Part shown: in pieces, positions 9,293-24,598 of the stretch
How the letters are laid out: every line of letters begins with the position of its first letter
How positions within the stretch are numbered: the first letter of the stretch is position 1
Virus record (IMG/VR): IMGVR_UViG_3300022539_000518
Location: 1 to 32,283 of that record
Strand: one strand, 5' to 3'
Length of the DNA stretch: 32,283 nucleotides
From: a virus
Notes under the pieces: generated by a model
The model's input: the letters and a program-made list of their open reading frames with translations, nothing else
Told to the model about the DNA's origin: nothing
Databases searched by the model: none
Position numbers and translations under genes: made by a program

Positions 9293-10045
9293 TTATCTCC
9301 CTTGCTGATAAGTTCTCGCTCCTATTTCTTCAAAACAACTTATTGCTCTAAAGCCTATATTCTTCCATTTCCTTCTTGCATCTGCCCTGCGACTTCTGCC
9401 GACTCTATCGTTCCACTTGCCCTTGTACCATTTTGCTTTATTCCAGTCCTCCAGGGATTCAGCGGCTTCGGATAAGGCATAATCGCAACATCCGAACCGT
9501 TCTATCTCAGGTAGAAAAGAAAAGTCTGTAGGGGTGTTATCATCACCGGATCGGTCATATTGGATTTCAAGTCTGATACCTGCGCTTACAGGTGGAGAAA
9601 TCCATAACTCTCTGCCCTTGATGGTTGCCACTATCGGCTCATCATCCCCCTCCTCATCCATATCGGGATATTTCAGATCAAAGATATGGTTAGGCCATAT
9701 CTTGATATTTCTGTCATTGTTCTGGTCCAGTAAAACTACATGGCCACCAGCATAATCAGGGGGTAGAGCTATTCTGTAATCTCCGGCAGTCAGCGTAGCG
9801 TAGGCAAATCTACGGGCGAAGGAGAAGGATTTAACTTGCATAAGCTCTTCTTTTGCCCTGACAAGCCATCTCTGGACAGAGGCAAGCGCAGGGGAAGAGG
9901 AAGTAGATAAGGTGCCTCTTTTAAGCTTGCTTTCAACCTCAGTTACCATGTCAGTGACAGTATTGAGAGTGCCTGCTGTGAAGGCTACTACGGTATCCTC
10001 TGCCCATGACTGATCTAAGCCAGTTGTGTCATCTGTTATCGACAT
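9293..10045 (-). CDS. Head-tail adaptor (P22 gp4/T7 gp11-like) (250 aa)
   Basis: The order of elements fits podovirus adaptors. An N-terminal helix with VQRWLVRAKEELMQVKSFSF (residues ~57-76) is followed by the strand ATLTAGDYRIALPPDYAGG, the beta segment ATIKGRELWISPPVSAG and LEIQYDRS. A C-terminal helical arm (FGCCDYALSEAAESLEDWNK, then GKWNDRVGRSRRADARRKW) closes it. These proteins ring the portal and join it to the nozzle. The gene is the first after a terminator at 10057-10092 and has its own AGGAG site, so it opens the tail module. Confidence 0.75.
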   Translation of the reverse strand: MSITDDTTGLDQSWAEDTVVAFTAGTLNTVTDMVTEVESKLKRGTLSTSSSPALASVQRWLVRAKEELMQVKSFSFARRFAYATLTAGDYRIALPPDYAGGHVVLLDQNNDRNIKIWPNHIFDLKYPDMDEEGDDEPIVATIKGRELWISPPVSAGIRLEIQYDRSGDDNTPTDFSFLPEIERFGCCDYALSEAAESLEDWNKAKWYKGKWNDRVGRSRRADARRKWKNIGFRAISCFEEIGARTYQQGR

Positions 10046-10056
10046 CTTGTCTCCTA

Positions 10057-10092
10057 ATAAAAAAGCCCTACACTGGAATACCAGTGAGGGCT
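10057..10092 (-). terminator. Intrinsic terminator between capsid and tail modules
   Basis: On the minus strand AGCCCT-CACTGG pairs with CCAGTG-(T)-AGGGCT around a four-base TATT loop (12 bp with one bulge), followed by TTTTTTATT. It sits in the short gap upstream of the adaptor gene, whose start is only about 12 bases beyond the T-run, so some read-through or antitermination would be needed to express the tail genes. Confidence 0.85.
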
Positions 10093-10126
10093 ATGCGTGA
10101 CTGGCAAGAATAAATTTCTTTTCTTT

Positions 10127-10930
10127 TTACTTTGCTATAAGTACCTCAAAGTAAGTAATATCATTCAGATCAATCCCTGTCTCCAGATCTGCCCAGGATT
10201 GTGTTGTGCCGCCTTTGGTGCTCATTATCAACACACCATCGGCTCCTACATTGGTTACTTCTTCGAGGACAAGATTGTCGAGCCAGATGATATCGTTGTC
10301 TGTGTCCATCCCACTCATTCTGATTTTCTCTTCTGTTACTGTTGTGGCTACAAAGTAAATAGTTTTACCAGTAAAGTCTGTCTCAGTAACAGATACATTA
10401 GGACCTGTACCAGTATTAGTCTGAACAACGAAAGTAACGACCCCAGCATCCACTTTAGCATCAAATGTTAGTTTGTATAATTTTCCAACCGTAAGATCTG
10501 AAGATAAATCGGTTGCATCCTTTAATATAAGATATGCACCATTGGTATTATCTCCCCAAGTAATCTTCAAAGTATTAGCATCATTCGCAATCGTATTGGT
10601 TCCATATGCCACCCAACTATAAGTTCCAGCAGTGAATATTCCCGCTCCAGCATCGAATAAATCACCCCCTGTCGCCTCCGCATCATCCGCCACATCTATA
10701 TAGCCCTTTGCAGCAACCCGCCAGAGGTGATCGAACAACCAAAGCATATAATCATTGCCAGCAGAGGCATAAAGAGCCGCTAAATCGACACCTGCTACCC
10801 GGAAACGGGCATTACCGGCGTTGAAGCAAGCTCCGGCATTCGTAGGCCAAAAGGTAGCGCCGGTCTCATCATCTATCAGACCCCAGGCTTTGCCTATGCA
10901 AGTATTTAGGTTAAGTTTTGATTCAAGCAC
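10127..10930 (-). CDS. Carbohydrate-binding-module-like virion protein (267 aa)
   Basis: The gene starts with GTG, overlapping the upstream 51-residue gene by eight bases. Residues ~1-80 are Ala/Gly-rich with WGLIDDETGATFWPTNAGAC. Residues ~95-230 form a beta-sandwich pattern typical of CBM4/9-like modules: TYSWVAYGTNTIANDANTLK, GKLYKLTFDAKVDAGVVTFV, TGKTIYFVATTVTEEKIRMS and IIWLDNLVLEEVTNVGADGV. The WLDN(L/I)xLxEV ending is characteristic of this fold. It probably sits on the particle and binds glycan. The N- and C-terminal parts resemble generic phage virion sequence. Confidence 0.65.
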   Translation of the reverse strand: MLESKLNLNTCIGKAWGLIDDETGATFWPTNAGACFNAGNARFRVAGVDLAALYASAGNDYMLWLFDHLWRVAAKGYIDVADDAEATGGDLFDAGAGIFTAGTYSWVAYGTNTIANDANTLKITWGDNTNGAYLILKDATDLSSDLTVGKLYKLTFDAKVDAGVVTFVVQTNTGTGPNVSVTETDFTGKTIYFVATTVTEEKIRMSGMDTDNDIIWLDNLVLEEVTNVGADGVLIMSTKGGTTQSWADLETGIDLNDITYFEVLIAK

Positions 10931-11078
10931 TCTGGGCCGCCTTCATCTTCTCTACAAGTTTATCAAAAACAGCAGTTACATCATCTGCTATCAAGGCTTT
11001 GCTCTCAGTTGCTGCCTGTTTTTCTGCTATCTCCTTTGCCAGATGCATAAGTCCATGCAGGATTTTGTCATCGATCAT
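10923..11078 (-). CDS. Small helical protein (51 aa)
   Basis: This gene begins at an ATG preceded by AAGGAG and encodes a hydrophilic helical peptide (MIDDKILHGLMHLAKEIAEK... ending KMKAAQSA). It has no cysteine and no membrane segment. Its end overlaps the GTG start of the next gene by eight bases, a sign of coupling. Function unknown; position suggests a minor virion or assembly protein. Confidence 0.65.
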   Translation of the reverse strand: MIDDKILHGLMHLAKEIAEKQAATESKALIADDVTAVFDKLVEKMKAAQSA

Positions 11079-11104
11079 CGTTTTTCTCCTTCTTGGTTAT
11101 TCGA

Positions 11105-11404
11105 TTAATCTATCACCACATAGCATACACCGCCATTCAACGCAGTAATGGTGAGGCCATCGAAAGGAACACCCGGATAGCCGAATACAACGCCCAGATC
11201 GTCTCCTATGAATGATGCCCTTTTCCCTATGATTCTCATTCCGGTCTGTGAGCTCAGAAGAAAGTCATCGTCAGTCGCTATGTCCTTGCCAGACGTCTCA
11301 TCTGCCACCCAGAAGATAGCGATAACTCGTACCATTCTTGTCATCAGCGCAGCCCCTTCGACATCTGAGTAAAGAACATTTCCAGTAAGTGTGGTTGTTG
11401 CCAT
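11105..11404 (-). CDS. Small capsid-module protein (99 aa)
   Basis: The protein is beta-rich with no recognised enzyme motif. MATTTLTGNVLYSDVEGAAL leads to VRVIAIFWVADETSGKDIA, then GKRASFIGDDLGVVFGYPG and a last strand GLTITALNGGVCYVVID. Small beta proteins of this kind downstream of capsid genes are often decoration or stabilising proteins. A clear GGAGAA site precedes the start. Confidence 0.65.
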   Translation of the reverse strand: MATTTLTGNVLYSDVEGAALMTRMVRVIAIFWVADETSGKDIATDDDFLLSSQTGMRIIGKRASFIGDDLGVVFGYPGVPFDGLTITALNGGVCYVVID

Positions 11405-11420
11405 TTTAAGGTTCTCCTGT

Positions 11421-11585
11421 TTAGTTTAGAGTTTTTTTCATCCTTTTCTCTATCTTTGTTGAAATACCAAAGGCCAGACCGCCTGCGGTAATACAGACAA
11501 AGCCTATATCTGCGCCATAATAAATTTCAATGACAATGCCAACAGCGACTATAACAACGCAAAACGTCTGAAGGATTGTTTTCAT
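11421..11585 (-). CDS. Small membrane protein, possible holin (54 aa)
   Basis: Two hydrophobic segments (residues ~4-21, LQTFCVVIVAVGIVIE, and ~26-42, DIGFVCITAGGLAFGIS) are joined by a short turn with one aspartate. A basic tail KIEKRMKKTLN follows. Two-segment proteins with a charged tail fit class II-type holins, but many phage membrane peptides look alike. The start has only a weak AGGA site. It lies between decoration-like genes, so its job may instead concern assembly. Confidence 0.6.
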   Translation of the reverse strand: MKTILQTFCVVIVAVGIVIEIYYGADIGFVCITAGGLAFGISTKIEKRMKKTLN

Positions 11586-11591
11586 TCCTAT

Positions 11592-11870
11592 TTACCAACC
11601 GATAACGCCGATTATACAAGCATCGGCAGTAGTATCCACACCGGAGATTGTTATTCCTGTAGAAGCGGCCCCATATTTGAGTACCTGGCCGGCTGTTGAT
11701 CCTGCGCTAAGGGTTTGTTTTTTCGGACAAATCCAAGAGGCTTCAATCCAAGTTAATCCCAGTGAAGCGGCAGTAATGGCATTGGTATCGACAGCAAGAT
11801 CACATTCATACATGATTAATTTCTTGCCGCCTATATCGGCCTTGAATCGCTCAGTTAATGTAACGGCCAT
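11592..11870 (-). CDS. Decoration-like protein, paralogue A (92 aa)
   Basis: It is closely related to the next upstream gene. Both begin MA(V/I)(S/T)LTERFK and continue DIGGK(K/Q)LIMYEC, with TNAITAASL, LKYGAASTGITISGVD and a final VIGW. The predicted fold is beta-rich. The pair follows the accessory block after the major capsid gene, so capsid decoration or vertex proteins are reasonable candidates. Compared with B it has a cysteine-containing SWICPKK and a shorter final loop (TTADACII). Confidence 0.7.
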   Translation of the reverse strand: MAVTLTERFKADIGGKKLIMYECDLAVDTNAITAASLGLTWIEASWICPKKQTLSAGSTAGQVLKYGAASTGITISGVDTTADACIIGVIGW

Positions 11871-11901
11871 GATAAATTCTCCTTATAATCTAAAGTTTAT
11901 A

Positions 11902-12186
11902 CTACCAACCGATGACACAAAGCATAACCTTATTATCTGTACTATCCGCATCAACACCGCTTATGGTTATGCCTGTAGAAGCCGCGCCATATTTCAGCAC
12001 CATACCGGTTACCGCGCCTGCGGTCAAAGTCTCCTTCATCGGTGATATCCAGGAAGATTCGATATAGGTCAATTCCAAGGAAGCGGCAGTTATTGCGTTC
12101 GTCTGGGCTGCCAAAGTACATTCATACATGATTAACTGTTTACCGCCTATATCTGTCTTAAATCGCTCTGTAAGGCTTATAGCCAT
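11902..12186 (-). CDS. Decoration-like protein, paralogue B (94 aa)
   Basis: This is the tandem relative of the 92-residue protein at 11592-11870. It shares about two thirds of its residues, including SLTERFK-DIGGK-LIMYEC and YGAASTGITISGVD, and differs mainly at the C-terminal loop (DADSTDNKVMLC). Both genes have a GGAGAAT(T) ribosome site at the same distance from ATG, so the duplication included the translation signal. It is likely a virion surface protein. Confidence 0.7.
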   Translation of the reverse strand: MAISLTERFKTDIGGKQLIMYECTLAAQTNAITAASLELTYIESSWISPMKETLTAGAVTGMVLKYGAASTGITISGVDADSTDNKVMLCVIGW

Positions 12187-12197: not shown

Positions 12198-13115
12198 TTA
12201 CAATTTGAATTTAATGCTACTCGTTGTGTCCAGATTCTTTTCCGGATCTCTATTGGAATATAGCAAAGGTGATTCCTGTTCTATATTTAACTGATCGCAT
12301 AAATCGCATGGTAGCCCCTTGAGATCGCCCTTTTCGTGTTTTCCTCTGAATTCACTATAGGCTTTACCCTTTAGGATTCCCTCTAAGGTCTGCTCATGAG
12401 CATCCCCAAGTATCACTTCGCTATCAGTTAAGAAGCAACACGGTATCACCGTCCCATCCCATTGTATCTGAAGTGGCCCGGAAAACGGACGTTTACATGA
12501 TTCCTTTCTTTTCTCTGTCTTTTTCCGATAATTTTTAACATTACACCAGTTATGAGATTTCCATAGTTCGATATAGTCTACCCCCGCTAAAGTCCACATC
12601 TCGAAATGATCCATCTCATCATCATTTACTGGTATAGCCGTTACCGATATTTTGCAATCGGGAACTATTTTATCTCTGAGAAGAATAGTTGAGAAGAGAT
12701 TAGTCATAACATTATCAAACCTCAGGCCCTTATGGATCTTTTCATAATTATCATACAGGCCATGAATACTGAACCGGATGTGGTCTAATCCTGCTACAAA
12801 CAGATCATACATTCTTTCCCATGTGCAAATACTGCCGTTTGTTGTGATGAAAGTATCTAAACCGTAATATTCACAACCCTCAATTTTTTCAGCTAATCCA
12901 TCATCCAGGAGTGGCTCCCCAAACCCAAATACTGAGATTGTTGTGGCTCCCAAACCCTTTGCCTGGTCAACTAATTCTGAAAATAATTCATATGGCATCG
13001 TACCTTTTGGTCTGGTCATCTTGTCATGGGCGCACATAGTACATGAGGCATTGCACCGATTTGTATTCTCTATCCTAATCTCTGGATTAATTAGTTTGCC
13101 TTTAGAGTCCAACAT
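12198..13115 (-). CDS. Radical SAM/SPASM enzyme (305 aa)
   Basis: Residues ~19-28 carry CNASCTMC, the C-x3-C-x2-C motif that binds the 4Fe-4S cluster and S-adenosylmethionine in radical SAM enzymes. FGFGEPLLD (residues ~63-71) is the usual second SAM-contact segment (G-E-P-L). ITTNGS follows at about residue 90, also typical. A C-terminal SPASM-like region has cysteines at CKRPFSG, VIPCCF and LPCDLCDQ, which may hold further clusters. Substrates in this class are often peptides or sugars. It overlaps the sulfotransferase-like gene by 14 bases at the end of an accessory block. The chemistry is sure; the substrate is not. Confidence 0.9.
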   Translation of the reverse strand: MLDSKGKLINPEIRIENTNRCNASCTMCAHDKMTRPKGTMPYELFSELVDQAKGLGATTISVFGFGEPLLDDGLAEKIEGCEYYGLDTFITTNGSICTWERMYDLFVAGLDHIRFSIHGLYDNYEKIHKGLRFDNVMTNLFSTILLRDKIVPDCKISVTAIPVNDDEMDHFEMWTLAGVDYIELWKSHNWCNVKNYRKKTEKRKESCKRPFSGPLQIQWDGTVIPCCFLTDSEVILGDAHEQTLEGILKGKAYSEFRGKHEKGDLKGLPCDLCDQLNIEQESPLLYSNRDPEKNLDTTSSIKFKL

Positions 13116-13809
13116 TTCTACCCACCCATACCTCTTTTATATTGACAGGAGACATATCTATTTGCCCCCCGATAAACTCTGATAGTTTATCACCTATCTC
13201 TTTCGTCTTATTCAGAATATCCTCTAACCATATCTCGATGTAATTAACTGTAGGCAATACCTTTGCAAGTTCCTTTTCATATCTTCTGGCTACCTTTAAA
13301 GATTCATTAGTTGTAAATCCTCGAAATATCTCTGATCCATGTAATTCGATTTTATGTCTCACTTCTGATTTTGCTCTTTCTAATGGCTCCCGCCTTGTCC
13401 AGATCCATTTTGCATTCTTAAATATACCAAAATTCTCAATCCATCGTTTATAAGCATAAATTCCCATAGGATCTTTTAGTATTTCTATATTTGATTCATG
13501 AAAATATTCTATTGTTCTCGCCATTCTGCATAAAATCTTACTGCTTATTGGATTATTTTTTCGCAATCCCATAATTATTCCTATAGCATTAGGATGAATT
13601 TTATAAGAACGAACAACACCTCTCTCTACAGAAATCTCAGCATTCATCATTCCCCATGTTGTATTTTCTAGTATCTCTTGACGAGACCTTTTATCCTCTA
13701 AATCCAGCAAAGGGAATAAATTATGATCTCTGGCATTGTAACCACTCTTTATCAGGCATTCCATGATTACGGATGTCCCAGTTCTACCAATGCCACATAC
13801 AACAATCAT
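13102..13809 (-). CDS. Sulfotransferase-like protein (235 aa)
   Basis: The N-terminus VVCGIGRTGTSVIMECLIKS is a P-loop-like 5'-phosphosulfate-binding motif (G-x-x-R-T/S-G-T/S-S/T) of PAPS-dependent sulfotransferases. EILKDPMGIYAYKRWIE (about residues 109-125) and KWIWTRREPLERAKSEV (about residues 134-150, with the R-x-P/E-x-x-R/S arrangement of the 3'-phosphate loop) support the fold. The first catalytic base is not evident. The gene overlaps its neighbours (ATGA upstream, 14 bases downstream). It probably transfers sulfate to a sugar hydroxyl; another P-loop role is possible. Confidence 0.75.
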   Translation of the reverse strand: MIVVCGIGRTGTSVIMECLIKSGYNARDHNLFPLLDLEDKRSRQEILENTTWGMMNAEISVERGVVRSYKIHPNAIGIIMGLRKNNPISSKILCRMARTIEYFHESNIEILKDPMGIYAYKRWIENFGIFKNAKWIWTRREPLERAKSEVRHKIELHGSEIFRGFTTNESLKVARRYEKELAKVLPTVNYIEIWLEDILNKTKEIGDKLSEFIGGQIDMSPVNIKEVWVGRNVGL

Positions 13810-14417
13810 TTAACTCTTCCATTCCTTAACCAATAAGGCCTATCATCATTCTCAGGATGCTTCATAACCATGGTCAGCCCTGCATCGATAGCAGAATAAG
13901 GGAATGAGAGGACATCTATGTTTGGATTCTGTTCTAATTCCTGTCTCGCTTTATACACATCATGGGCCATATTTTTAGTGAGATAATGCTCCTGACATGG
14001 AAATGTGTCGTGGAGGAACATAACTCCACCCATTACCAGTATGCTTAGAAAGAATTCCGCTTCCTTTTTTACAACCTCATAGTCATGCTGGCCATCAATG
14101 AAAACTATTGCCGGTATATCCTGAAATTGTTTTATAAAAGCCTCTGATTTACCGATAAAGCAAATGTGATCTTTAAATAATTTATCTTGGAAGCTTCCGA
14201 ATATCCCGCCCATAACAAGATCACAGCTATACAACTTGACTTTTTCCCGTTTAGCATGTTCAGCAAACATCAGACTTGAGGCTCCCATTCCTATCTCGAC
14301 AATCGGGCCTTTGCGATATTTTAAGACAACTTGTGTTATGGCACTCATTATGCTCCATTCTTCTGTGGCAGTGCCTAATTCGATTTTTCCTTTGCTTGTC
14401 TGAAACCATATTGCCAT
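13806..14417 (-). CDS. Class I SAM methyltransferase, Methyltransf_24-like (203 aa)
   Basis: GPIVEIGMGASSLMFAEHA (about residues 37-55) is the nucleotide-binding motif I. KVKLYSCDLVMG is motif II with its acidic end, and AIVFIDGQHDYEVVKKEAEF is the FIDG-x-H-x-Y-E signature of this family. A final GGVMFLHDTFP strand holds the acidic metal or substrate site. The family methylates sugars or small molecules. It lies between the second methyltransferase and the sulfotransferase-like gene with an ATGA overlap. Confidence 0.85.
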   Translation of the reverse strand: MAIWFQTSKGKIELGTATEEWSIMSAITQVVLKYRKGPIVEIGMGASSLMFAEHAKREKVKLYSCDLVMGGIFGSFQDKLFKDHICFIGKSEAFIKQFQDIPAIVFIDGQHDYEVVKKEAEFFLSILVMGGVMFLHDTFPCQEHYLTKNMAHDVYKARQELEQNPNIDVLSFPYSAIDAGLTMVMKHPENDDRPYWLRNGRVK

Positions 14418-14418
14418 G

Positions 14419-15213
14419 CTATTTACCTGAACATAATGCCATTATTCGTGATAAGTTTCTCCTCGAGTATTTCTTGCGTCTTATTGTCCATGCATTAAAT
14501 CCGGCCTCTCTTAAAACTCTATCTAATGTCGAGGCATTGAAAAACCAAAGATGTACAGAATTAAATTCGTCATTGTTTTGGGACAGGTAATCAAATTCAA
14601 CCACATCCGGGACTTCCACAAAAAGAGTCCCTTTCTCTGTTAGATCATGTTGCTTTATATTCTTGAGAAAACTTATCGGGTCCTGCACATGCTCAAGAAC
14701 ATGAACAAGTGTAATCAGATCGAAAGACCGCTCATCCGGCAACCAATTTCTCACATCCGGATAGAAACCCTGGATACTTGTCATCCCAAGTTTATTTATG
14801 AATTCTGCCGATTGCTGATCCGGCTCGACACAATAAATCTGATCGACATAATGCCTCATTGCATGGGGGAAAACCCCTAATCCGCTACCTATATCCAACA
14901 TTGATTTAGGGCGATCTAAGAATTGGGTTAACCACATCACCCTTTGTTTGTTTTCGGATTCCGGAAAGTCTATATTGTTAATCCGCTCGAATTCCTCTTT
15001 TACGGTTGTCTTTCTCATTTGATGATTACGGTATTTCAAATAGATCTGCTTTCGATCCTTTTCCGTCATTTGATTCTCTTGCCACATAAATTCACAAGAT
15101 GGGCATTCATACCAATCTCTCGGATTACCATTATTGATAAGTCTTTGATATCTATCTGATAACATCCTAAGACTATCAATCCGAAATTCCGATTTACAAA
15201 GATAACACCTCAT
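14419..15213 (-). CDS. Zinc-ribbon plus class I methyltransferase (264 aa)
   Basis: The N-terminal zinc ribbon has CYLC (residues 3-6) and CPSC (about residues 38-41), as in many sugar C- or O-methyltransferases. The methyltransferase domain carries KSMLDIGSGLGVFPHAMR (motif I, about residue 104), YCVEPD (motif II), FDLITLVHVLEHVQDPISFL (motif IV with the H-V-L-E-H-x-x-D-P signature) and a final FVEVPDVVEFD. The carbohydrate link comes from family and context. It is one of a run of genes coupled by ATGA after the capsid gene. Confidence 0.85.
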   Translation of the reverse strand: MRCYLCKSEFRIDSLRMLSDRYQRLINNGNPRDWYECPSCEFMWQENQMTEKDRKQIYLKYRNHQMRKTTVKEEFERINNIDFPESENKQRVMWLTQFLDRPKSMLDIGSGLGVFPHAMRHYVDQIYCVEPDQQSAEFINKLGMTSIQGFYPDVRNWLPDERSFDLITLVHVLEHVQDPISFLKNIKQHDLTEKGTLFVEVPDVVEFDYLSQNNDEFNSVHLWFFNASTLDRVLREAGFNAWTIRRKKYSRRNLSRIMALCSGK

Positions 15214-15449
15214 GGATCTACCGGCCTCCCAAGTGGAGCTGTCTGCATTGCAATCGCTCCTCTATGAATCATAACACCCGTTTTCTTGAAATTATGCCCC
15301 CGCGCCCTTTTCATCTCTACTTCATATTTCGCCTTTTGGATCTTGAAAGTGCATTTAGTACAGCAACGATAATCATTGACAGGAGCTATCAGCGGATCTC
15401 CGCACATGAGACAAAGACCCTTATCCAATCTTTCTTGTGATGTTGTCAT
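15210..15449 (-). CDS. Small zinc-binding protein (79 aa)
   Basis: LCLMCGDPLI and CCTKCTFKIQ form a C-x2-C...C-x2-C zinc ribbon in the first 40 residues. A lysine/arginine-rich helix (KAKYEVEMKRARGHNFKK) follows. It overlaps both neighbours by ATGA, placing it firmly in the accessory block. It may bind nucleic acid or serve as an accessory to the methyltransferase downstream. Confidence 0.65.
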   Translation of the reverse strand: MTTSQERLDKGLCLMCGDPLIAPVNDYRCCTKCTFKIQKAKYEVEMKRARGHNFKKTGVMIHRGAIAMQTAPLGRPVDP

Positions 15450-15682
15450 CGTTCTACTGGAAACTTATCTCTGATTATCCCAAACGAAGTCGGTATAAAT
15501 GGAGAAAATATGTCTCTGCCTTCTCCGATCTTGGTGCCGAATGGTTCGAGTACATGCTTATTGTACTTATCCTGAGTCCGCGGCAAGTTACCTTGTTTTA
15601 ATTCGCAACTGCGACAATATCCTGACTTGGTTGCAGCCCGGTTGCATATTTTGCACCTGTAGGGGTTTCCACGTTTTGCCAT
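15446..15682 (-). CDS. Small zinc-binding protein with long overlap (78 aa)
   Basis: YRCKICNRAATKSGYCRSCE gives a C-x2-C...C-x2-C zinc finger at residues 9-26, then a polar tail. The first 85 bases lie within the 3' end of the 410-residue gene in another frame. The ATG at 15682 has AAAGGA about 11 bases upstream. No later in-frame start would keep the cysteines, so the overlap seems real unless the upstream gene is frameshifted. Function unknown. Confidence 0.6.
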   Translation of the reverse strand: MAKRGNPYRCKICNRAATKSGYCRSCELKQGNLPRTQDKYNKHVLEPFGTKIGEGRDIFSPFIPTSFGIIRDKFPVER

Positions 15683-16830
15683 CTCATTGAATCCTTTATT
15701 TTTATAAAATCATCGGTTGCATCTTTTAACATCGATGTATGGTAAAATTTACATACCTCATCGAACATATACCAATTTTCTGCTTTCTTGAGAGATTCCT
15801 CATCTAACTCCCTCGCCATTGTTCCCAGAATTCCCCCCTCACTGCAATTGTAATAGTGAAAGGAGACAGGATTATTAAGTTGACCGAGCAAGGTAGATTC
15901 AAGCCATATCTTATAAACCCATAACTGGCCGGATGTCCCTGCTAAGTCCAATTCAACATCATACTTACACCGCTCATTCGGAATCCAGAGATTTTTTTTC
16001 TTCATTTTAAAACTGGCCCATACCTTCTCTATTGCCGCTTCATCCCTTCCCGTTCCTGTCTTTGGTGCATTGGTTGAATAATCACCATCGGCATAATAAA
16101 GTTTCCGGCGTTCATCGGCAGAGGGAATATTCGGAAAACAGAGATCATTTCCTACTGCCATAAATACTGTTGATTGAAATTTCACAATGCTGATCATCCA
16201 GGCAGCATTTAATGTATTTCCTCCCAGCTCCAGTTTATGATGATAAGGATTTTTTCTTATCTCTTTCTGAAATACATCACACAATTTGGGTTCACTGCTG
16301 GCATAAAAGAGTATTTCCCTTTTCTGTTTTGACCATTCTCCTAATACCTTCGGAGAGCAATGCAGTCCGGTTATGAGAACTGTATTTTGGCCCTCTGGCG
16401 GTATGTCCTCATTCAATTGCCGATATGTAACATCAGAGGCATCAACGAGCATTACAAAATCAGGAATTATGCCTATCTTTAGCAACGGTTTGAACTGATG
16501 ATTAGAAGCGATTATGACAAAATCTCTATGTGGCCATTCTTTGACTCCATCTCTATCGACAATCTCTTTTAAAACATCGCAATTTTTATTGAATGAGCCT
16601 CCGGCACCAACACCGATAGTCGCTTTGTTTCTGCCTATACCGATACAACTATTGAGCGGTTTATGTTTTTTCCAGAGTTTATGATTAGTCTTGATATTCT
16701 TTCCCCATAGAGGGCCCAATAAGCCTCTTGTGCTATTCGATATACCTGTCACATAATCATAACTTGACTTTCCTATGATCCCGTGTAAGTGCTCTTGCTC
16801 TTCGTAAGGCTTGGCCTGGCCTTTTTCCAT
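15598..16830 (-). CDS. DUF115/MptE-like protein (410 aa)
   Basis: The central part resembles the DUF115 (6-hydroxymethylpterin pyrophosphokinase MptE-like) fold shared with motility-accessory glycosyltransferase-type proteins. ATIGVGAGGSFNKNCDVLKE (about residue 70) is the N-terminal loop of that fold, followed by FVIIASNHQFKPLLKIGIIP and DFVMLVDASD, where bacterial members read G-x-x-PDF-x-x-x-x-D. VFMAVGNDLCF (about residue 240) is the later conserved D-containing strand. Family members prime or modify surface sugars. It starts the accessory block 55 bases after the capsid gene, behind a hairpin. The last 85 bases overlap a zinc-finger gene. Confidence 0.7.
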   Translation of the reverse strand: MEKGQAKPYEEQEHLHGIIGKSSYDYVTGISNSTRGLLGPLWGKNIKTNHKLWKKHKPLNSCIGIGRNKATIGVGAGGSFNKNCDVLKEIVDRDGVKEWPHRDFVIIASNHQFKPLLKIGIIPDFVMLVDASDVTYRQLNEDIPPEGQNTVLITGLHCSPKVLGEWSKQKREILFYASSEPKLCDVFQKEIRKNPYHHKLELGGNTLNAAWMISIVKFQSTVFMAVGNDLCFPNIPSADERRKLYYADGDYSTNAPKTGTGRDEAAIEKVWASFKMKKKNLWIPNERCKYDVELDLAGTSGQLWVYKIWLESTLLGQLNNPVSFHYYNCSEGGILGTMARELDEESLKKAENWYMFDEVCKFYHTSMLKDATDDFIKIKDSMRWQNVETPTGAKYATGLQPSQDIVAVAN

Positions 16831-16885: not shown

Positions 16886-18115
16886 TTACTGAAGTACAGT
16901 AAACATGCCATGTTGGCGCAGATTCCATCCCTGCATCTTCATAGAGAATTCACTCAGAATCTGCCAATCCTCGAAGTCACCCATCTTGCCGAGTTTCTCC
17001 ATGATTGCTTTTCTTCCCCTTTTCGCATGCAAGGAAATCTTATCGGTATCGAGAACAAAGGCAAGGTTTGTCGGGACATGGCGCATTGGCACGATATCCA
17101 CCTCGATATTAGCCTCAGACATCCAGGAAGTAATTACTCCACCTCCTACTCTATCATTCGGTCTCATCCGAATCCGATTGACATCCCAGCGGGTAATCTT
17201 TGCACACTGATTCTTGTCTCCGAAGAAAGTCAGACGATCAGCACCATATTCCCACAACGCTGAAACCATTGTGTTGAGTTTCGTGTTGGTGAGAGTATAA
17301 GTGGAGGTGTCTATATGGGTTCCGCTTTGACTGAGTAAAAATCCCAGGCAACCATTGATAAGACCTGCAATAACACTCGTCTTTGCTTTGTAAATGCTAT
17401 ATAGTGCCGCTCTTTCACGATCTCGCTGCAACTCCTTCATACGCATCAAGATCTGATGTCTGTCCTCACGTCCGACTGCGTACATATCCGTTGCCCGCAT
17501 TGATCCGGTAATCTGGACATCCTGACGTAGAATAGTGAAGTTGTTAGAGCAGACGACCCTCTGGCGTGGCATGGGGACATTAGGAATAGAACCTTCGTTT
17601 GCGAACGCCCCGAGCACATAAACCATGTGGTCAGATACCATCGACACAGGAGTGCCTTCTATCCATGAAACAAATATGGTGGTTCCGGTTCCTGCCGCAG
17701 CCGTTGTACTGGTTACGACAGCAAGCATATGAGAAGCCGTGATAGAACTAAAGGTATAAAGAACCGAGCCTTGTTTCACCTGGTGCAAAGTTTGACTTGC
17801 AGACAATCCGTCAATGCTTGTGACTGCAAAACTGAGCTGGGCACTTTGAGTACTGGTTATGACTTTTAAATATCCAGGGCCAAGATCTTCCGAAATCCAT
17901 TCGATTGAGTTTCCTCCCGACTCCGGTCCCCATGAAATTGAGTTAATAAAAGGAGTATCCGACTGTGCTAAAAGATCCAACTGCTCAGATACATCCCTCC
18001 TTTCGGTTCCGGTAACGATACCGAAAGGCACATCACCTACGATATCCCTGGAATAATAACCTCTCCCTAAACTCTGGGCCTCGGTCATCAACCAGGTACT
18101 GGCTGTAGTGGCCAT
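16886..18115 (-). CDS. Major capsid protein, SU10/DUF5309-like (409 aa)
   Basis: The features fit the SU10 major capsid family of the HK97 fold. The N-arm ends in SDTPFINSISWGPESGGNSI with EWISEDL (residues ~51-78, the DTPF...W/EW...D motif). QRVVCSNNFTILRQDVQITG sits in the core strand at about residue 183. The spine helix region is MRMKELQRDRERAALYSIYK, followed by the C-terminal domain RLTFFGDKNQCAKI and the closing strands FEDWQILSEFSMKMQGWNLR and HGMFTVLQ. It follows the scaffold gene with 14 bases between. The length is slightly above the usual ~300-350 because of inserted loops at residues ~85-170. Confidence 0.9.
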   Translation of the reverse strand: MATTASTWLMTEAQSLGRGYYSRDIVGDVPFGIVTGTERRDVSEQLDLLAQSDTPFINSISWGPESGGNSIEWISEDLGPGYLKVITSTQSAQLSFAVTSIDGLSASQTLHQVKQGSVLYTFSSITASHMLAVVTSTTAAAGTGTTIFVSWIEGTPVSMVSDHMVYVLGAFANEGSIPNVPMPRQRVVCSNNFTILRQDVQITGSMRATDMYAVGREDRHQILMRMKELQRDRERAALYSIYKAKTSVIAGLINGCLGFLLSQSGTHIDTSTYTLTNTKLNTMVSALWEYGADRLTFFGDKNQCAKITRWDVNRIRMRPNDRVGGGVITSWMSEANIEVDIVPMRHVPTNLAFVLDTDKISLHAKRGRKAIMEKLGKMGDFEDWQILSEFSMKMQGWNLRQHGMFTVLQ

Positions 18116-18129
18116 AATTTATTCCTCTC

Positions 18130-18975: not shown

Positions 18976-19298
18976 TATTTTTGCTCCTTCTTTAAATATT
19001 TAATTGCATTTTGCCATTTACTTTTTTTCTCTATCCATTTTAGAGGATCTAAGAGAAACATAAGTATTTGGTCTATGTTGTAATATGTCCTCTGAACTAT
19101 ATCCTTCTCCTTAATATCAAGAGTTGTAAATTGCTTGGAAAACATATTCATTTGCATTATTCCTTTAATTATCAGTAGCATCTGTTTATAAAATTTCCAT
19201 TGATGAGATTTTATCGCTAATTGAAAGTTGTTTATTTCTCTCTGAAATTCTGGATCAGTCTGATAAAAATGTACGAATTGGGTTAGTAAACTCTTCAT
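18975..19298 (-). CDS. Unknown helical protein of head module (107 aa)
   Basis: The protein is rich in aromatic and basic residues (SLLTQFVHFYQTDPEFQREI, then WKFYKQMLLIIKGIMQMNMF and WIEKKSKWQNAIKYLKKEQK) and predicted all-helical. No family is recognised. It is coupled to portal by ATGA and to scaffold by TAATG, so it is probably made with them. It may assist portal or scaffold assembly. Confidence 0.65.
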   Translation of the reverse strand: MKSLLTQFVHFYQTDPEFQREINNFQLAIKSHQWKFYKQMLLIIKGIMQMNMFSKQFTTLDIKEKDIVQRTYYNIDQILMFLLDPLKWIEKKSKWQNAIKYLKKEQK

Positions 19299-21250
19299 GA
19301 TTCCGGACTCATTTCATTTTTTATGGCCTCAAGTGCCATGTCATATCCAAATTGCTGACCTGCCAGTTCTTGATCTTCTTGAAAATCCTTGTCACTTAAT
19401 CTAAGTTTTCCGCCTGATTTCACTTGCTCTAATTGTTGCTTGCCACGCCTTTCAGCTTCTTCCATTTGCATAGCGGCCCTTTGCTGTTGGGCCATTTCCT
19501 GCTGGAATTGTTGCGGAGATTTCAGGAGAAGATCAGCTTCCCGGATATCCATTAATTCCATCATAGTTTTGATGTACTGATACTGATTAATCCAGGGATT
19601 GTTTACCCACTGTTGGGACATCTGAATTAGATTCTGCGCCCTGAAGTGTTTACCGAGGGCCGGTTCCATTGCCGTATATCTTGCAGCAAAATCAAAATCG
19701 GGATGAATATCATCACCGAATAACTGCCCGAAACTCTGACCTTCTTTCTCAGTAACCCGATATTCAAAACCGCTGGGTAGATGAAAAGTATTTAATATCA
19801 TCATATATTTCAATAAAGGCCTTATCCCTAAGTAATCATTTGACATGAGCATGAGTTTTGCCCTGGCCTCACCCATTTGCTGGATGCTTGCAACAACGCC
19901 TACTCGCTCCTGACGTTGCGGTGTTTGCCCCATCGAGTAACTATACATTCCCGTGATATCCTGGATTGCATTCTCATAGAAATTCTCTTGTTCCAGAAAT
20001 AGATTAGAATGCATATCAGCGATTGGAAGTGGTTCTACTTCGCCTGCATGAGCCGGTATAATGCCGAATGGCTTCCATACAAGGGCAGCCGGATCAATAT
20101 CGGAATCAGGATCGACCCTAATCATTTGGTTGACCATCATCATCACATTCTGGATACGGAGATTGGCCAATGTGTTTATCTGGTCTTGTATGCCTTTGGT
20201 TAGTCTAATCAACCCTAAATCCCAATATATCTCAGGATGCATATAGCAACCGATATCGAACAATGGTCTTACGCCATAAGTATTACGCTGAAGAGAGAGA
20301 ATGGTTTTGTAATTGCCGATATGGACAATAACCTCTTCTTCCATGCCTTTTATCTGAACGCCTGATCCGACTTCATAAGGAGCACTGTCAAGAATGAGTT
20401 TGGTATAGCATTCGAGTACATCTACTTCGGGCGCTCTATGTTCATCCTCAATCTGATCGACTGTCAGACCTCCTTCAATTTCTAATCCTTTTACAAATGC
20501 CTCGTCTGAATCCTGTGGTCTCTGGCTTGCCCCGCCTGCCGAATGCCATCCAAGATCCTTGATATTTTTATATATTCCTTTATCTTCCATCTTTTTCAAC
20601 TCATCTACGCTTCTCTTATAGACAAGGAATACAGCAGGCATCTTTTGAATCGACTTATATTCAGGATCAGGGAGAAATAACTTGTTATGCAGGATCTCGA
20701 CATAAGGCCCATCATAAATCGTCTGCATTTCCTGATTGATATAATCGATAATATCCATGCCCTGAAAATTCCCAAATCGGTCGAAATTGGGCTTAGGCAA
20801 GGATATGCGTCTGGGCGCTATCCTTTCTTCTTTTTTCCAATAAACTTTAGCAATACCTTTTCCAAAGGTAAGAGCATTAAAAAACCATTTGATCATCGTC
20901 AGGTATGAACCACCCTGCATATCGACATCATTCAGGCTTTCAAGTTGAAAATTCAGAACACCTTCGATTCCTTTTGCTCTGTTCAGGTCCACCTTTTTAC
21001 GTGGCTTAACTGAGACGATATTACCGGATTGATAAAGTTGATCCATGAATCGGGACAGGATTGTGTAGATTATGGGTATCAGACGGGGGAAGGTATGATT
21101 ATAAGCCAGGGGGTATGATTCCCTATTTCTAAAACTTAGATAGGATTCTAAGTCCTCATCATAGTTTGTTCTGTTATATTGATTCTTGTCCCAATTGTGC
21201 TTGTATCGGGCCATTAGGGTTCGGAAGATTTTTTGTTCTTTCTGATTCAC
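19295..21250 (-). CDS. Portal protein, P22-like (651 aa)
   Basis: The start is GTG, overlapping the cupin gene stop as GTGA. The N-terminal helical part (YKHNWDKNQYNRTNYDEDLE, residues ~15-35, and LSRFMDQLYQSG) and the wing region fit portal proteins. So do WFFNALTFGKGIAKVYWKKE (about residue 122), ECYTKLILDSA, the stem helix GLIRLTKGIQDQINTLANLR (about residue 340) and the crown with TGMYSYSMGQTPQRQERVG (a T-G-x-x-x-x-x-x-G motif common in portals). The long Gln/Glu/Met-rich C-terminal helix (residues ~575-645) is typical of podovirus barrel-type portals. It forms the dodecamer through which DNA enters. Confidence 0.9.
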   Translation of the reverse strand: MNQKEQKIFRTLMARYKHNWDKNQYNRTNYDEDLESYLSFRNRESYPLAYNHTFPRLIPIIYTILSRFMDQLYQSGNIVSVKPRKKVDLNRAKGIEGVLNFQLESLNDVDMQGGSYLTMIKWFFNALTFGKGIAKVYWKKEERIAPRRISLPKPNFDRFGNFQGMDIIDYINQEMQTIYDGPYVEILHNKLFLPDPEYKSIQKMPAVFLVYKRSVDELKKMEDKGIYKNIKDLGWHSAGGASQRPQDSDEAFVKGLEIEGGLTVDQIEDEHRAPEVDVLECYTKLILDSAPYEVGSGVQIKGMEEEVIVHIGNYKTILSLQRNTYGVRPLFDIGCYMHPEIYWDLGLIRLTKGIQDQINTLANLRIQNVMMMVNQMIRVDPDSDIDPAALVWKPFGIIPAHAGEVEPLPIADMHSNLFLEQENFYENAIQDITGMYSYSMGQTPQRQERVGVVASIQQMGEARAKLMLMSNDYLGIRPLLKYMMILNTFHLPSGFEYRVTEKEGQSFGQLFGDDIHPDFDFAARYTAMEPALGKHFRAQNLIQMSQQWVNNPWINQYQYIKTMMELMDIREADLLLKSPQQFQQEMAQQQRAAMQMEEAERRGKQQLEQVKSGGKLRLSDKDFQEDQELAGQQFGYDMALEAIKNEMSPES

Positions 21251-21576
21251 AGTGTTGACCCCAGTTCTCTACGATCAATATCCGATTCATCGTATTCAAT
21301 ATACATTTCTTCGATCATCTCCGAATCTTCATAAACTCTGAATTCGTGCCAGATAAGAGGTCCAACTGTAAATTCCTGTCCTGGCCCTAAAATAACCTCA
21401 TCAAATTCTGTCCTAATTCCTACTTTGCCACTAAGGACAACAAAGATATTCGACTTAGCTTTATGGGAATGAAAACTACATCGTGTCCTCGCTTTAAGTT
21501 TAAGATAACTGACAGCATGGGTGGAATCCTGCCTTATCAGCCATCTTTCACCCCAAATTTTTGATGTTCTTTCCAT
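21247..21576 (-). CDS. Cupin-fold protein (109 aa)
   Basis: CSFHSHKAKSNIFVVLSGKV (about residues 33-52) is cupin motif 1, with the H-x-H pair and a downstream Gly. EVILGPGQEFTVGPLIWHEF is motif 2 with its conserved P-G and final His. The metal-ligand glutamate of motif 1 is replaced (AKSN). The family covers sugar epimerase/isomerase-like, binding and storage proteins. It overlaps the genes on both sides (TAATG and GTGA). Given two sugar blocks nearby, a sugar-related role is plausible but not shown. Confidence 0.8.
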   Translation of the reverse strand: MERTSKIWGERWLIRQDSTHAVSYLKLKARTRCSFHSHKAKSNIFVVLSGKVGIRTEFDEVILGPGQEFTVGPLIWHEFRVYEDSEMIEEMYIEYDESDIDRRELGSTL

Positions 21577-22063: not shown

Positions 22064-22269
22064 TATCCCTTTATCTCGTTAACATCTGCTTCCCAATTTA
22101 ATTTCCCGAAATGTTCACACATCCTATGGGCATAAGCTGACGGGAATTTATTATCAGGTATAAGTACAGAAAAACGCGGTACAGATTGCCAAGGAAACTT
22201 ATAAATCATTATTTCCTCATCTTTGTCCAGTAACGGATGTGGACATTTTTTTATTATTTCTGGTTTCAT
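22063..22269 (-). CDS. Unknown small protein (68 aa)
   Basis: The start at 22269 (ATGAAACCAG) overlaps the upstream stop as ATGA and has GGAG nine bases before; the longer TTG start has no such support. The protein (MKPEIIKKCPHPLLDKDEEI... PRFSVLIPDNKFP... YAHRMCEHFGK) is not recognised. It lies between the glycosyltransferase-like gene and the 36-residue peptide, so it ends the first sugar block. Confidence 0.65.
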   Translation of the reverse strand: MKPEIIKKCPHPLLDKDEEIMIYKFPWQSVPRFSVLIPDNKFPSAYAHRMCEHFGKLNWEADVNEIKG

Positions 22270-23135
22270 CTTGTAATTCTCCAGCAATCCTCAGAATAAC
22301 CCGCGTCTTTGTATCCTTGAAGCTCAGTTTTAAGTTTACCTAAAAAGTATTGCACAATCGGATCTTGCATTATCTTTTTATTCTTTTTCTTAAAATGCTT
22401 CAGTACCTTAGCAAATTCATTGGTATTATGCACTCTATAATCTAAATAATCAGCACTTCTCCAGATCCGGGGATCTCCTATATGAAATGTCAGATGTGCC
22501 TCTGTAAACATTTTACACCTTTCTGCATAAAAAGCCATACTTGTTGCAAGGGTGGTTTCCTGCCAGGGTATGCCCATGCAGACATTACCGATTCTATATG
22601 CAGGATATATTTTTCTGGGAAATACAAAACAATCGCATCCGCCATGAGGGGAGCCGATTTCAGCATACATTATAGGAATGTCCTCGATATCCTTATACTC
22701 GCCTGGAATCACTCTTCTGTTGATAATGAAGGCATCATGGCCTCTATCTATGAGTTTGTTGACTGCAAGGTAAAATTGAGGCATCAGGCAAATGTCGGAG
22801 TTAGTTTGAATGAAATAATCTGCATCGGAGGCCTCATAGAGATTGTTGAGTATATCCCTGACAAGGGGTAAGTCACGTTCAATTTTGAATTTTTTGCCAA
22901 GATCTAAAACAGAGCGTTCTAAGTCTTTCCATGTTTTTGTGAAACCTGCTGGCAATATCTCCTGATCATCAGGATAAATAGTAGCATAAAGATCAACCTG
23001 AAAATCACCTTTCATCAAATCTTCAGCAAATTGTTTAGCAATTCGTATAGTTTGCCACACAATAGGCTGGGCCGTTTTCAGATCGGATGTCTCGGGAGCG
23101 GTGAAAGGATTTATGATATGGGCAAATTTGCGCAT
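22266..23135 (-). CDS. Glycosyltransferase-like protein (289 aa)
   Basis: ASDADYFIQTNSDICLMPQF (about residues 101-120) has the acidic N-S-D-I/L of GT-A glycosyltransferases, where D binds metal and nucleotide sugar. AFIINRRVIPGEYKD and the later GGCDCFVFPRKIYPAYRIGN (G-x-D-x-F-V-F/P) resemble the acceptor region of phage- and cyanobacteria-borne relatives. WQETTLATSMAFYAER follows. The start lies inside the upstream HNH gene by 25 bases, with AAGGAA before it. It probably transfers a sugar, perhaps fucose made by the neighbour. Confidence 0.65.
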   Translation of the reverse strand: MRKFAHIINPFTAPETSDLKTAQPIVWQTIRIAKQFAEDLMKGDFQVDLYATIYPDDQEILPAGFTKTWKDLERSVLDLGKKFKIERDLPLVRDILNNLYEASDADYFIQTNSDICLMPQFYLAVNKLIDRGHDAFIINRRVIPGEYKDIEDIPIMYAEIGSPHGGCDCFVFPRKIYPAYRIGNVCMGIPWQETTLATSMAFYAERCKMFTEAHLTFHIGDPRIWRSADYLDYRVHNTNEFAKVLKHFKKKNKKIMQDPIVQYFLGKLKTELQGYKDAGYSEDCWRITR

Positions 23136-23671: not shown

Positions 23672-24598
23672 TTATTTCTCCTTGTACCATCGACAAGTCT
23701 CTATTAAACCTTGTGATAAAGATGTTTTTGCTTGCCAACCTAATTTATTAATGTGAGATATATTTAAAAGTTTCGATTTAACACCGTGTGGAGATAAAAG
23801 ATCCCATTCTATTGATTGTTTCCGCCCTATAATATCTATAATTAATTGAGCAAGTTCCTTAATTGATATTTCTATGCCTATTCCTATATTAAGAGTACCA
23901 TCTTGTAGATCAACATAATCTAAATTTTCCATCACCCAAATTGCTCCTTCAGCAAAATCATCGACATATAAGAATTCCCGTTTTGCGGTTCCGTTTCCCC
24001 AGACTTTTATTATATTCTCTTCTTTCTGTTCAAAGCATTTCCTTATAAGTGCAGGTATAACATGACTTTTTTTTTTATTAAAATTATCCCATTTGCCATA
24101 CAAATTAGGAGGAATTAAAGACAAAAAATTACATCCATATTGCCTGAGATAAGACCTGCAAAGCTCGATACCAGCTAATTTAGCAATGGCATAAGACCAG
24201 TTCTCATCCGTCTTTCCATCGCCAAGTTGCTCTTCTTTATAAGGTTGAGGGCCATCTACAGGATAAATGCAAGAACTCCCAAGGAAGAGGAGTTTTTTGA
24301 CTTTGTATGCGTGGCAGGCATTGATGACATTGGTCTGAATCAGAAGGTTATCGGAGAGCAATTCAGTAGGATGAGTGATTGATTCCAGAACACCCCCGAC
24401 ACGGGCAGCAGCTAAAAATACATATTCAGGTTGATAAGAAGAAAAAAGCCAATCAACCATTGGCGCGGATATTAGATCGACTTCCTGATGTGTTTTGAGA
24501 ATGAGATTATCATATCCTTTATTTTGCAAATTTCGCAAAATAGCAGATCCGGCCAGACCAGTATGACCAGCTATGTATATCTTTGAGTTTTTATTCAT
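23672..24598 (-). CDS. fcl: GDP-L-fucose synthase (308 aa)
   Basis: The extended short-chain dehydrogenase fold begins with IYIAGHTGLAGSAILRNL (NADP-binding G-x-x-G-x-x-G). It continues with FLAAARVGG, the Ser of LFLGSSCIYP and the Y-x-x-x-K of WSYAIAKLAGIE, which is the catalytic pair. LIPPNLYGKWDNF and VWGNGTAKREFLYVDDFAEG are typical of GDP-4-keto-6-deoxymannose epimerase/reductases. The enzyme makes GDP-L-fucose from GDP-4-keto-6-deoxy-D-mannose. No GDP-mannose 4,6-dehydratase is in this window, so that step would come from the host or another part of the genome. Length is normal. Confidence 0.9.
   Translation of the reverse strand: MNKNSKIYIAGHTGLAGSAILRNLQNKGYDNLILKTHQEVDLISAPMVDWLFSSYQPEYVFLAAARVGGVLESITHPTELLSDNLLIQTNVINACHAYKVKKLLFLGSSCIYPVDGPQPYKEEQLGDGKTDENWSYAIAKLAGIELCRSYLRQYGCNFLSLIPPNLYGKWDNFNKKKSHVIPALIRKCFEQKEENIIKVWGNGTAKREFLYVDDFAEGAIWVMENLDYVDLQDGTLNIGIGIEISIKELAQLIIDIIGRKQSIEWDLLSPHGVKSKLLNISHINKLGWQAKTSLSQGLIETCRWYKEK

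Follow-up and report, generated by a model that had tools for sequence, protein, structure and literature searches.

The seven-gene block that follows the major capsid gene in IMG/VR record IMGVR_UViG_3300022539_000518 (the whole 32,283-nucleotide stretch analyzed here, hereafter the window) probably constitutes a virion-glycosylation module in which the core is fixed and the decoration enzymes are exchangeable, a reading to which we assign a probability of about 0.56. It is based on the position and recurrence of the genes, on their identities, and on the folds and motifs of the products; most likely the cassette of this uncultured phage attaches an unusual sugar, methylated and sulfated, to the phage's own particle.

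Arrangement of the block and neighboring genes

The cassette spans positions 16830-12198 of the minus strand, where seven overlapping or abutting open reading frames (ORFs), all starting with ATG and free of internal stops, lie downstream of an SU10-type major capsid protein (MCP) gene (Table 1). The gap between the MCP gene and the first cassette gene (DUF115) is +55 nt, and those that follow are -85, -4, -4, +1, -4, and -14 nt; hence, the genes are tightly coupled, as the initial annotation had proposed in describing seven coupled genes directly behind the capsid gene. Its calls of two methyltransferases and two zinc proteins also hold. Neither of the small zinc-like ORFs had a family match above cut-off, yet their Cys motifs recur in relatives; for example, the overlapping start and Cys motif of zinc-ribbon-like protein 1 are repeated in contigs L018, L114, L124, and L125. 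An Rfam scan returned no RNA families, and promoter and terminator signals were no commoner than in shuffled sequences.

The small-protein family that trails the radical SAM (rSAM) gene occurs in 7 of 12 related records, in one to three copies and always between the rSAM and adaptor genes. On the other side of the capsid gene lie candidate sugar genes, and some related phages carry a GDP-fucose-synthase-like gene or a GDP-mannose 4,6-dehydratase. The conserved 289 aa protein encoded in the same region had no Pfam or PDB matches. The block had originally been read as a pathway able to assemble a sugar and then methylate and sulfate it. The glycan-type character of the cassette stands, given the acyltransferase and GT2 glycosyltransferases found in a relative's slot, but assembly of the sugar by the cassette itself is no more than a possibility. 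The GDP-fucose-synthase-like gene and the cupin gene lie outside it, upstream. Methyl and sulfate on a sugar, and the virion as target, are predictions. A known anti-phage defense system was also considered and rejected, PADLOC giving only weak superfamily-level matches (viperin and a Mad2 methyltransferase domain).

Table 1. Features of the cassette and of neighboring genes in the window
Feature	Coordinates	Strand	Evidence and remarks
GDP-L-fucose-synthase-like epimerase, possible sugar-nucleotide supply	23672..24598	-	PF01370 2.4e-59; NF047922 2.6e-103, below equivalog cut-off
Conserved 289 aa protein, possible GT-A glycosyltransferase (weak, look by eye only)	22266..23135	-	Homologues at same place in L114, L115, L117, L124
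Cupin beside portal gene, possible sugar enzyme	21247..21576	-	PF07883 4.2e-06, just under cut-off; kept in most relatives
SU10-type MCP, 409 aa, directly upstream of cassette	16886..18115	-	PF17236 SU10_MCP 7.8e-34; PHROG major head protein 9.8e-27
DUF115/PF01973 protein, 410 aa, Maf-like, candidate protein glycosyltransferase, cassette core gene	15598..16830	-	PF01973 (MptE-like/DUF115) 5.5e-18, over cut-off
Zinc-ribbon-like protein 1, CxxC..CxxC, 78 aa	15446..15682	-	Cys 10,13,23,26; first 85 nt lie within the end of the DUF115 gene
Small zinc-binding-like protein 2, 79 aa	15210..15449	-	Cys 13,16,29,30,33; family in 11/12 records
Class I SAM methyltransferase, 264 aa, N-terminal four-Cys element (Cys 3,6,37,40)	14419..15213	-	PF13489 (Methyltransf_23) 6.9e-22; in 4/12 records
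Methyltransf_24, O-methyltransferase type, 203 aa	13806..14417	-	PF13578 2.6e-12; in 4/12 records
PAPS-type sulfotransferase, 235 aa	13102..13809	-	PF13469 1.2e-3
rSAM enzyme, 305 aa, twitch/SPASM-type C-terminal domain, BtrN-like	12198..13115	-	PF04055 2.2e-16; PF13186 (SPASM) 2.9e-11
Small protein, putative decoration protein or acceptor	11902..12186	-	21% Ser+Thr
Tandem paralogue of 11902-12186	11592..11870	-	242 nt direct repeat, 71% identity
SU10 adaptor (head-tail connector), closing the MCP-adaptor interval at its lower end	9293..10045	-	PF24175 7.4e-12

Predicted enzymes and the possible target of modification

An AlphaFold model of the DUF115 protein, built from a 12-row alignment (pLDDT 83.8, pTM 0.86), had Maf (5MU5) as its top PDB match (Z 21.7, rmsd 3.4, 249 residues aligned), followed by the pterin kinase HPPK (Z 14.4); sialyltransferase folds ranked below kinase and SteA folds (CstII, Z 8.9). 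Of the DUF115/MptE-like label first given to this protein, the family assignment stands, but a role as pterin kinase (MptE) is the less likely reading, since the fold comparison favors Maf. The window genes scanned included no pterin genes. Maf proteins are known or candidate glycosyltransferases of flagellin Ser/Thr residues (PMC9298399), and the DUF115 protein resembles Maf/PseD enzymes in the central domain and the residues that follow, by fold and by sequence profile. Unlike them, it has no flanking Maf domains: residues 32-384 of the model align with Maf 238-520 only, and the N- and C-terminal domains of Maf (~650 aa) are missing. Moreover, its gene lies behind a capsid gene and not in a flagellin locus, and neither a flagellin gene nor a CMP-sialic-type sugar pathway (CMP-pseudaminic or legionaminic acid) was seen in the window. 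The model points to a Maf-like protein that is a candidate protein glycosyltransferase.

Hydropathy analysis detected no membrane segments in the cassette enzymes tested, which fits cytoplasmic action on assembling virions. At a late stage of infection, the cassette might instead alter a glycan on the host surface, whether to mask receptors, to lessen sticking to debris, or to block co-infection, in which case its position among head genes would serve only for late expression. Its enzyme kinds are the same as those of bacterial surface-polysaccharide clusters, GDP-sugar genes are present, and the nearest cellular rSAM homologues adjoin genes that, read from their sequences, encode KdsD-like sugar isomerases, heptosyltransferase-like proteins, or methyltransferases, a setting that also favors the virion-glycosylation reading. 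The host-surface explanation is nonetheless unlikely in our judgment, as Maf-type enzymes act on protein, the cassette has no flippase, polymerase, or membrane glycosyltransferase (nor do the tested enzymes have membrane segments), and the capsid gene is the conserved partner across a dozen phages. Against the virion-glycosylation reading, just 5 of 75 neighbor proteins of cellular rSAM genes match GT2, so that the surroundings of the wider family in cells are no more than mildly glycan-like. No link between DUF115 and the cellular rSAM genes was found, PF01973 being present in 2 of 15 rSAM-bearing genomes when counted genome-wide.

A full SPASM domain holds two auxiliary clusters and has seven conserved Cys. 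The rSAM enzyme carries five invariant Cys beyond its CxxxCxxC core (C21, C25, C28), and the C-terminal set (C207, C226/227, C270, and C273) corresponds to one auxiliary cluster; Cys 21, 25, 28, 207, 226, 227, 270, and 273 are invariant in 11 homologues. Consequently, the radical SAM/SPASM call of the first description holds at family level, but not as a full SPASM domain, and the protein is better termed twitch-type and BtrN-like. BtrN (4m7s), which uses radical SAM chemistry to dehydrogenate an aminocyclitol (2-deoxy-scyllo-inosamine; PMC9012708), is its closest solved relative (profile 1.6e-26), with both domains aligned and the core motif and one-cluster Cys set shared. The phage rSAM family differs in forming its own clades; two-electron oxidation of a cyclitol or sugar alcohol would be its predicted reaction. 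Alternatively, the rSAM enzyme could modify a capsid or decoration peptide directly (via a crosslink, epimer, or thioether, as a RiPP maturase might), with separate roles for the other genes. Although peptides are the substrates of many SPASM-type enzymes (PMC9012708) and small paralogous proteins adjoin the rSAM gene, this seems improbable: the peptide epimerase YydG is a far weaker profile match (about 4e-6) than BtrN, the Cys set suffices for just one auxiliary cluster, and GT-like proteins and methyltransferases are the constant company of the gene. The Cys count and the BtrN match also speak against a full SPASM peptide maturase, a candidate that was rejected.

For the sugar-capping enzymes of the proposed glycosylation module, the Methyltransf_24 protein matched O-methyltransferase structures by profile (3e-6). 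The sulfotransferase is the weakest family call, scoring 19.5 bits against PF13469 where the cut-off is 27. The initial sulfotransferase-like assignment is upheld because orthologues in L128 and L134 exceed that cut-off (5e-9 and 4e-7), a profile comparison matches the CurM sulfotransferase structures 4gox/4gbm (7e-6 and 2e-5), and the RTGTS-like (phosphosulfate-binding RxGTS) and R..S (3'-phosphate) motifs are conserved, with R9, G11, R140, and S148 invariant (n=5 sequences).

Recurrence of the frame in related phages

The comparison took in 12 phages that share this head module and have a complete MCP-adaptor interval, namely the window and relatives that are metagenome contigs. The DUF115 gene follows the MCP gene in all 12 (and in the incomplete record L133), the small zinc protein and the rSAM enzyme are each found in 11, and the order MCP-DUF115-variable region-rSAM-adaptor is kept in 11/12 SU10-type records. 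The cassette gene order is far beyond chance, as the frame recurs in the 12 records with a complete interval. By comparison, the interior is variable (sulfotransferase in 4/12, methyltransferases in 8/12). One phage of the 12 encodes two GT2 glycosyltransferases and a hexapeptide acyltransferase inside the interval. In the closest relative sharing the frame, the sulfotransferase slot holds a hexapeptide acyltransferase, two GT2 proteins, and another methyltransferase; matches in the variable slot of L018/L117 were 4.6e-24 for the acyltransferase and 6.8e-9 and 2.6e-7 for GT2. No same-capsid relative was without the entire block, so the gene-order half of the condition that the initial annotation had set for its own refutation did not arise. 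The interval of L129, reduced to DUF115 and the zinc protein, has no rSAM, sulfotransferase, or methyltransferase; the head module can hence do without the decoration enzymes.

Strong differences in interior genes among close relatives would also be expected if loose cargo genes without joint function had accumulated at a permissive site just downstream of the capsid gene. We regard this as quite improbable, considering that DUF115 and rSAM occur together in 11/12 records, that the genes overlap translationally, that swaps stay within one functional theme, and that SU10-type phages form one clade in the rSAM tree (support 100/99). Radical SAM enzymes occur in nucleoside pathways, which counts toward a role of the cassette in DNA or nucleotide hypermodification. 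Phage glycosyltransferases can modify DNA (cited in PMC12619734), but this role is very improbable, as no modified-pyrimidine synthesis gene was recognized among the window genes scanned, the cassette genes sit in the head block, and DUF115 and rSAM match Maf and BtrN, not nucleoside enzymes.

The link of the module to head genes, which the initial annotation had drawn from gene placement, extends to two further capsid types besides SU10. In HK97-type and P22-type phages, distant rSAM relatives (36-43% identity) are encoded in the region of the head genes, where their neighbors are GT42-like proteins, FkbM methyltransferases, GT8 and other putative glycosyltransferases, and a sulfotransferase-like ORF. 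An IMG/VR scan for rSAM without positional restriction yielded 17 distant contigs (some near-duplicates), and in all 17 the gene was in a block of head genes, its partners being of the FkbM, GT8, MT24, and sulfotransferase-like kinds. In the isolate-phage collection, a cassette-wide DNA search and most protein searches found no match, indicating that the collection has no close isolate of the group.

Proposed pathway, precedents, and implications

In the pathway we infer, in which the timing of expression, the sugar donor, the acceptor, the sequence of steps, and every catalytic activity are putative, the cassette would be expressed late, together with the head genes, as its position suggests. 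The Maf-like DUF115 protein would transfer a nucleotide-activated sugar to Ser/Thr residues of a newly synthesized structural protein. This acceptor would be the capsid protein or else the small proteins whose genes directly follow the cassette, and the donor would be host-derived, with help from the upstream GDP-fucose-synthase-like gene. The BtrN-like rSAM enzyme could then oxidize a hydroxyl of the transferred sugar, or remodel it otherwise, and the methyltransferases and sulfotransferase would cap it with methyl and sulfate; in relatives, the caps may instead be acyl or further glycosyl groups.

As in phage virion-glycosylation systems, these glycan enzymes lie amid structural genes. Mycobacteriophages are the known precedent: in Corndog, the genes between portal and protease include those for an O-methyltransferase and for glycosyltransferases (PMC4351075), Che8, Corndog, and Myrna are reported to have glycosylated proteins (PMC12363180), and virion glycans on capsid and tail-tube proteins are described by Freeman et al. 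2023, as cited in PMC12363180, PMC11256854, and PMC12619734. Phage glycosyltransferases amid head genes, and the O-methyltransferase of Corndog, are thus shared features. In contrast, a Maf-like enzyme, rSAM, and sulfotransferase are not described in the mycobacteriophage papers covered, and their combination appears to be new; the phages here form an SU10-type group, with a putative glycan and acceptor. In Pseudomonas phage PAJU2, similarly, the stretch from head closure to tail terminator holds a GT42-like gene annotated as alpha-2,3-sialyltransferase, followed by a gene of unknown function and a methyltransferase gene. However, the GT42-like product is similar to the short partner found in HK97-type islands (22% identity), and a profile comparison did not link this short family to the window DUF115 protein. 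Nor did comparison of profiles support homology between the DUF115 family and F2 or F16, both short GT42-like families, and treating them as one family was dropped.

Since similar gene sets sit in head regions of three shell types, the pattern resembles a recurrent way of masking or adjusting the surface of the virus. More tentatively, and at less than even odds, the cassette may represent an undescribed, widespread virion-glycan system, shared in outline by SU10-, HK97-, and P22-type capsids, in which a Maf-like enzyme glycosylates heads, an rSAM dehydrogenase yields an oxidized sugar, and sulfate, methyl, and acyl caps are swapped in a serotype-like manner. If our reading is right, virions would carry elaborate, swappable glycans made by rSAM and sulfotransferase chemistry, which was not described for virions within the searches made, and sulfated or keto sugars on capsids would offer viral proteomics a distinctive chemical marker. 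Dozens of unnamed head-block genes would gain testable functions, new sugar-modifying enzymes would be at hand, and the glycans would influence the binding of phages to hosts, mucus, and antibodies.

Cassette layout and exchange in SU10-type phages

The window, a virus record of 32,283 bp, has a virion module of the SU10 type (portal, 1.4e-27; adaptor, 7.4e-12; major capsid protein, 7.8e-34). A longer IMG/VR contig, 3300022538_000866 (49,877 bp), represents the same virus (compared proteins 99.4-100% identical); the isolate phage collection held no close relative, the sole match to the portal being 21.5% identical. Seven minus-strand ORFs start 55 nt past the capsid gene and overlap or abut (junctions: -85, -4, -4, +1, -4 and -14 nt). 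ORF layout and family matches bear out, at family level, the coordinates and annotations of the glycan-modification cassette initially proposed here.

Features of the window and of related phage contigs
Feature	Coordinates	Strand	Assignment	Basis
Cassette gene 1	15598..16830	-	MptE-like/DUF115	family search
Cassette genes 2 and 3		-	two small Cys-motif proteins	
Cassette gene 4		-	Methyltransf_23, four-Cys element at N terminus	family search
Cassette gene 5		-	Methyltransf_24	family search
Cassette gene 6		-	Sulfotransfer_3, below cut-off	family search
Cassette gene 7 (rSAM)	12198..13115	-	Radical_SAM + SPASM	family search
Overlap within 3' end of gene 1	15598-15682	-	zinc-ribbon motif of first small protein, other frame	
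Two adjacent small genes	11592-12186	-	tandem duplication, 71% DNA identity	
HNH endonuclease gene	23111-23668	-	between GDP-fucose-synthase-like and 289 aa genes	
175 aa ORF	27337-27864	-	RAMP superfamily (PF03787, E 0.001), sub-threshold	
L117, position of tandem small genes	17919-19434		three copies of longer form	
L127, L128, L130, immediately upstream of rSAM	8401-10241, 10261-12105, 9512-11352		two-gene unit: Methyltransf_11-type, 110-120 aa protein	
L130 rSAM (contig 3300035698_003928)	33727-34626		one in-frame TAA	
PAJU2 (L136)	5001-6944		annotated alpha-2,3-sialyltransferase (GT42-like), unknown gene, methyltransferase	

Twelve SU10-type records, the window included, contain a complete interval from capsid to adaptor gene. 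DUF115 is present in 12/12, always as the first cassette gene past the capsid gene, and a protein of the Zn2 type (15210..15449 in the window) in 11/12, an unrecognised Cys/His ORF occupying its slot in L130. The rSAM gene occurs in 11 of the 12; it was not found in L129, where a profile search across the whole record likewise failed to detect it, and that contig stops within the adaptor gene. Sulfotransferases occur in four records (window, L120, L128 and L134) and methyltransferases, of three kinds, in eight. In the window's nearest relative by rSAM (L018/L117, 64%), the second methyltransferase is separated from rSAM by a hexapeptide acyltransferase, two GT2 glycosyltransferases and a further methyltransferase; L116 has a minimal DUF115-Zn-rSAM cassette. 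Therefore, the frame is constant and decoration genes are swapped among these phages; comparing gene order in relatives, a check suggested with the initial annotation, recovered the frame repeatedly.

Upstream of the portal lies a GDP-fucose-synthase-like gene (window, L114, L115) or a GDP-mannose 4,6-dehydratase gene (L117, L124), and L114 and L117 also encode a sugar C-methyltransferase (Methyltransf_13/14). In L114, the GDP-fucose-synthase-like and 289 aa genes are adjacent, without the HNH gene. The 110-120 aa protein of the two-gene unit had no Pfam match (one copy scanned). The RAMP fold is most familiar from CRISPR proteins, and the 175 aa ORF is oddly placed next to a phage terminase.

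Predicted enzymes

The DUF115 model, built from a 12-row alignment, is of good quality (pLDDT 83.8, pTM 0.86). Among solved structures, it was closest to Magnetospirillum Maf (Foldseek 5.1e-9; VIA Z 21.7 over 249 residues, rmsd 3.4), with a clear lead over an archaeal pterin kinase (Z 14.4) and over SteA, a regulator of cell division (Z 10.2); next came CstII and sialyltransferases from mammals, at about Z 7.5-8.9. Maf proteins are candidate flagellin Ser/Thr glycosyltransferases in Campylobacter and Magnetospirillum (PMC9298399). The phage protein covers the central domain of Maf and slightly more, whereas the outer domains are missing; several uncultured phage proteins share its fold. Its tail, where its gene overlaps that of the first small protein (85 nt; 46-91 nt in four relatives), is a low-confidence prediction.

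The rSAM profile matched BtrN across both domains (1.6e-26), far ahead of peptide-modifying enzymes. Cys 21, 25 and 28 of the SAM cluster are invariant, as are Cys 207, 226, 227, 270 and 273, a single-auxiliary-cluster pattern. BtrN is a twitch-domain enzyme that performs a two-electron oxidation of an aminocyclitol (PMC9012708). Because of this profile, Cys pattern and chemistry, we infer that rSAM oxidises a sugar-like hydroxyl. Either disruption of the gene or faulty assembly would account for the in-frame TAA in L130.

The window's sulfotransferase is a weak match with orthologues in L120, L128 and L134; each of these records contains a match above cut-off, and the L128 and L134 orthologues exceed the Pfam cut-off. 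The family profile matches the CurM sulfotransferase (7e-6) and both nucleotide-binding motifs are kept. An HK97-type phage, L019, has a separate sulfotransferase-like ORF after rSAM (3.7e-3, below cut-off).

rSAM relatives beyond SU10-type phages

A scan without positional restriction gave 19 rSAM loci: the window's own virus, SU10-type L018 and 17 distant relatives (some near-duplicates), all 17 within head-gene blocks. Where an HK97-type contig includes both flanks, rSAM lies between the capsid gene (PF05065) and a gp6-like connector (PF05135); in L005, whose capsid gene lies off the contig, it follows the connector. P22-type phages (PF13252) carry it two ORFs past the capsid gene. Companions include short GT42/DUF115-like proteins (weak PF01973), FkbM methyltransferases (6.6e-13), Methyltransf_24 (2.2e-17), GT8 (7.3e-18), an epimerase family and a family, F4, with some phage homologues annotated as glycosyltransferases, P1 PmgQ among them. 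An rSAM homologue in phage C48C1 lies within 1 kb of a glycosyltransferase, with a carbamoyltransferase gene nearby. In PAJU2, the GT42-like to methyltransferase genes lie between head closure and tail terminator; as a cultured Pseudomonas phage, it makes a convenient model for this idea.

In the rSAM tree, the SU10-type sequences form one supported clade and the P22-type sequences another. HK97-type requires two changes, and the wider group also includes a few bacterial sequences, so the gene has probably moved at times from one lineage to another or into bacterial contigs. The four nearest cellular loci adjoin KdsD-like isomerase, heptosyltransferase-like or methyltransferase genes, as read from sequence; wider neighbourhoods are mixed (of 75 neighbour proteins, 11 radical SAM, 5 GT2 and 4 Methyltransf_23). 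Cellular neighbourhoods lend mild support to a glycan role.

Proposed virion glycosylation

In the most probable reading, the cassette is expressed late and acts in the cytoplasm, where its enzymes would glycosylate a virion protein and decorate the attached sugar. The analysis shows gene identity, fold, motifs and conserved linkage; we infer all catalysis, as well as the donor, the acceptor and when the genes are expressed. The module is read as cytoplasmic because hydropathy revealed no membrane segments in the cassette enzymes. Candidate acceptors are the capsid protein (26 Ser/Thr among the 80 residues 81-160) and the small proteins just downstream of the cassette, which 7/12 SU10-type records encode as single, double or triple copies.

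Our search of open-licence literature found nothing relevant on radical SAM, MptE-like or sulfotransferase genes in such a setting. Mycobacteriophages already provide known cases of virions glycosylated by phage enzymes (PMC12363180), among them Corndog, in which an island with an O-methyltransferase and glycosyltransferases is flanked by portal and protease (PMC4351075). The window cassette would be a variant of this kind, with a combination of enzymes that appears new.
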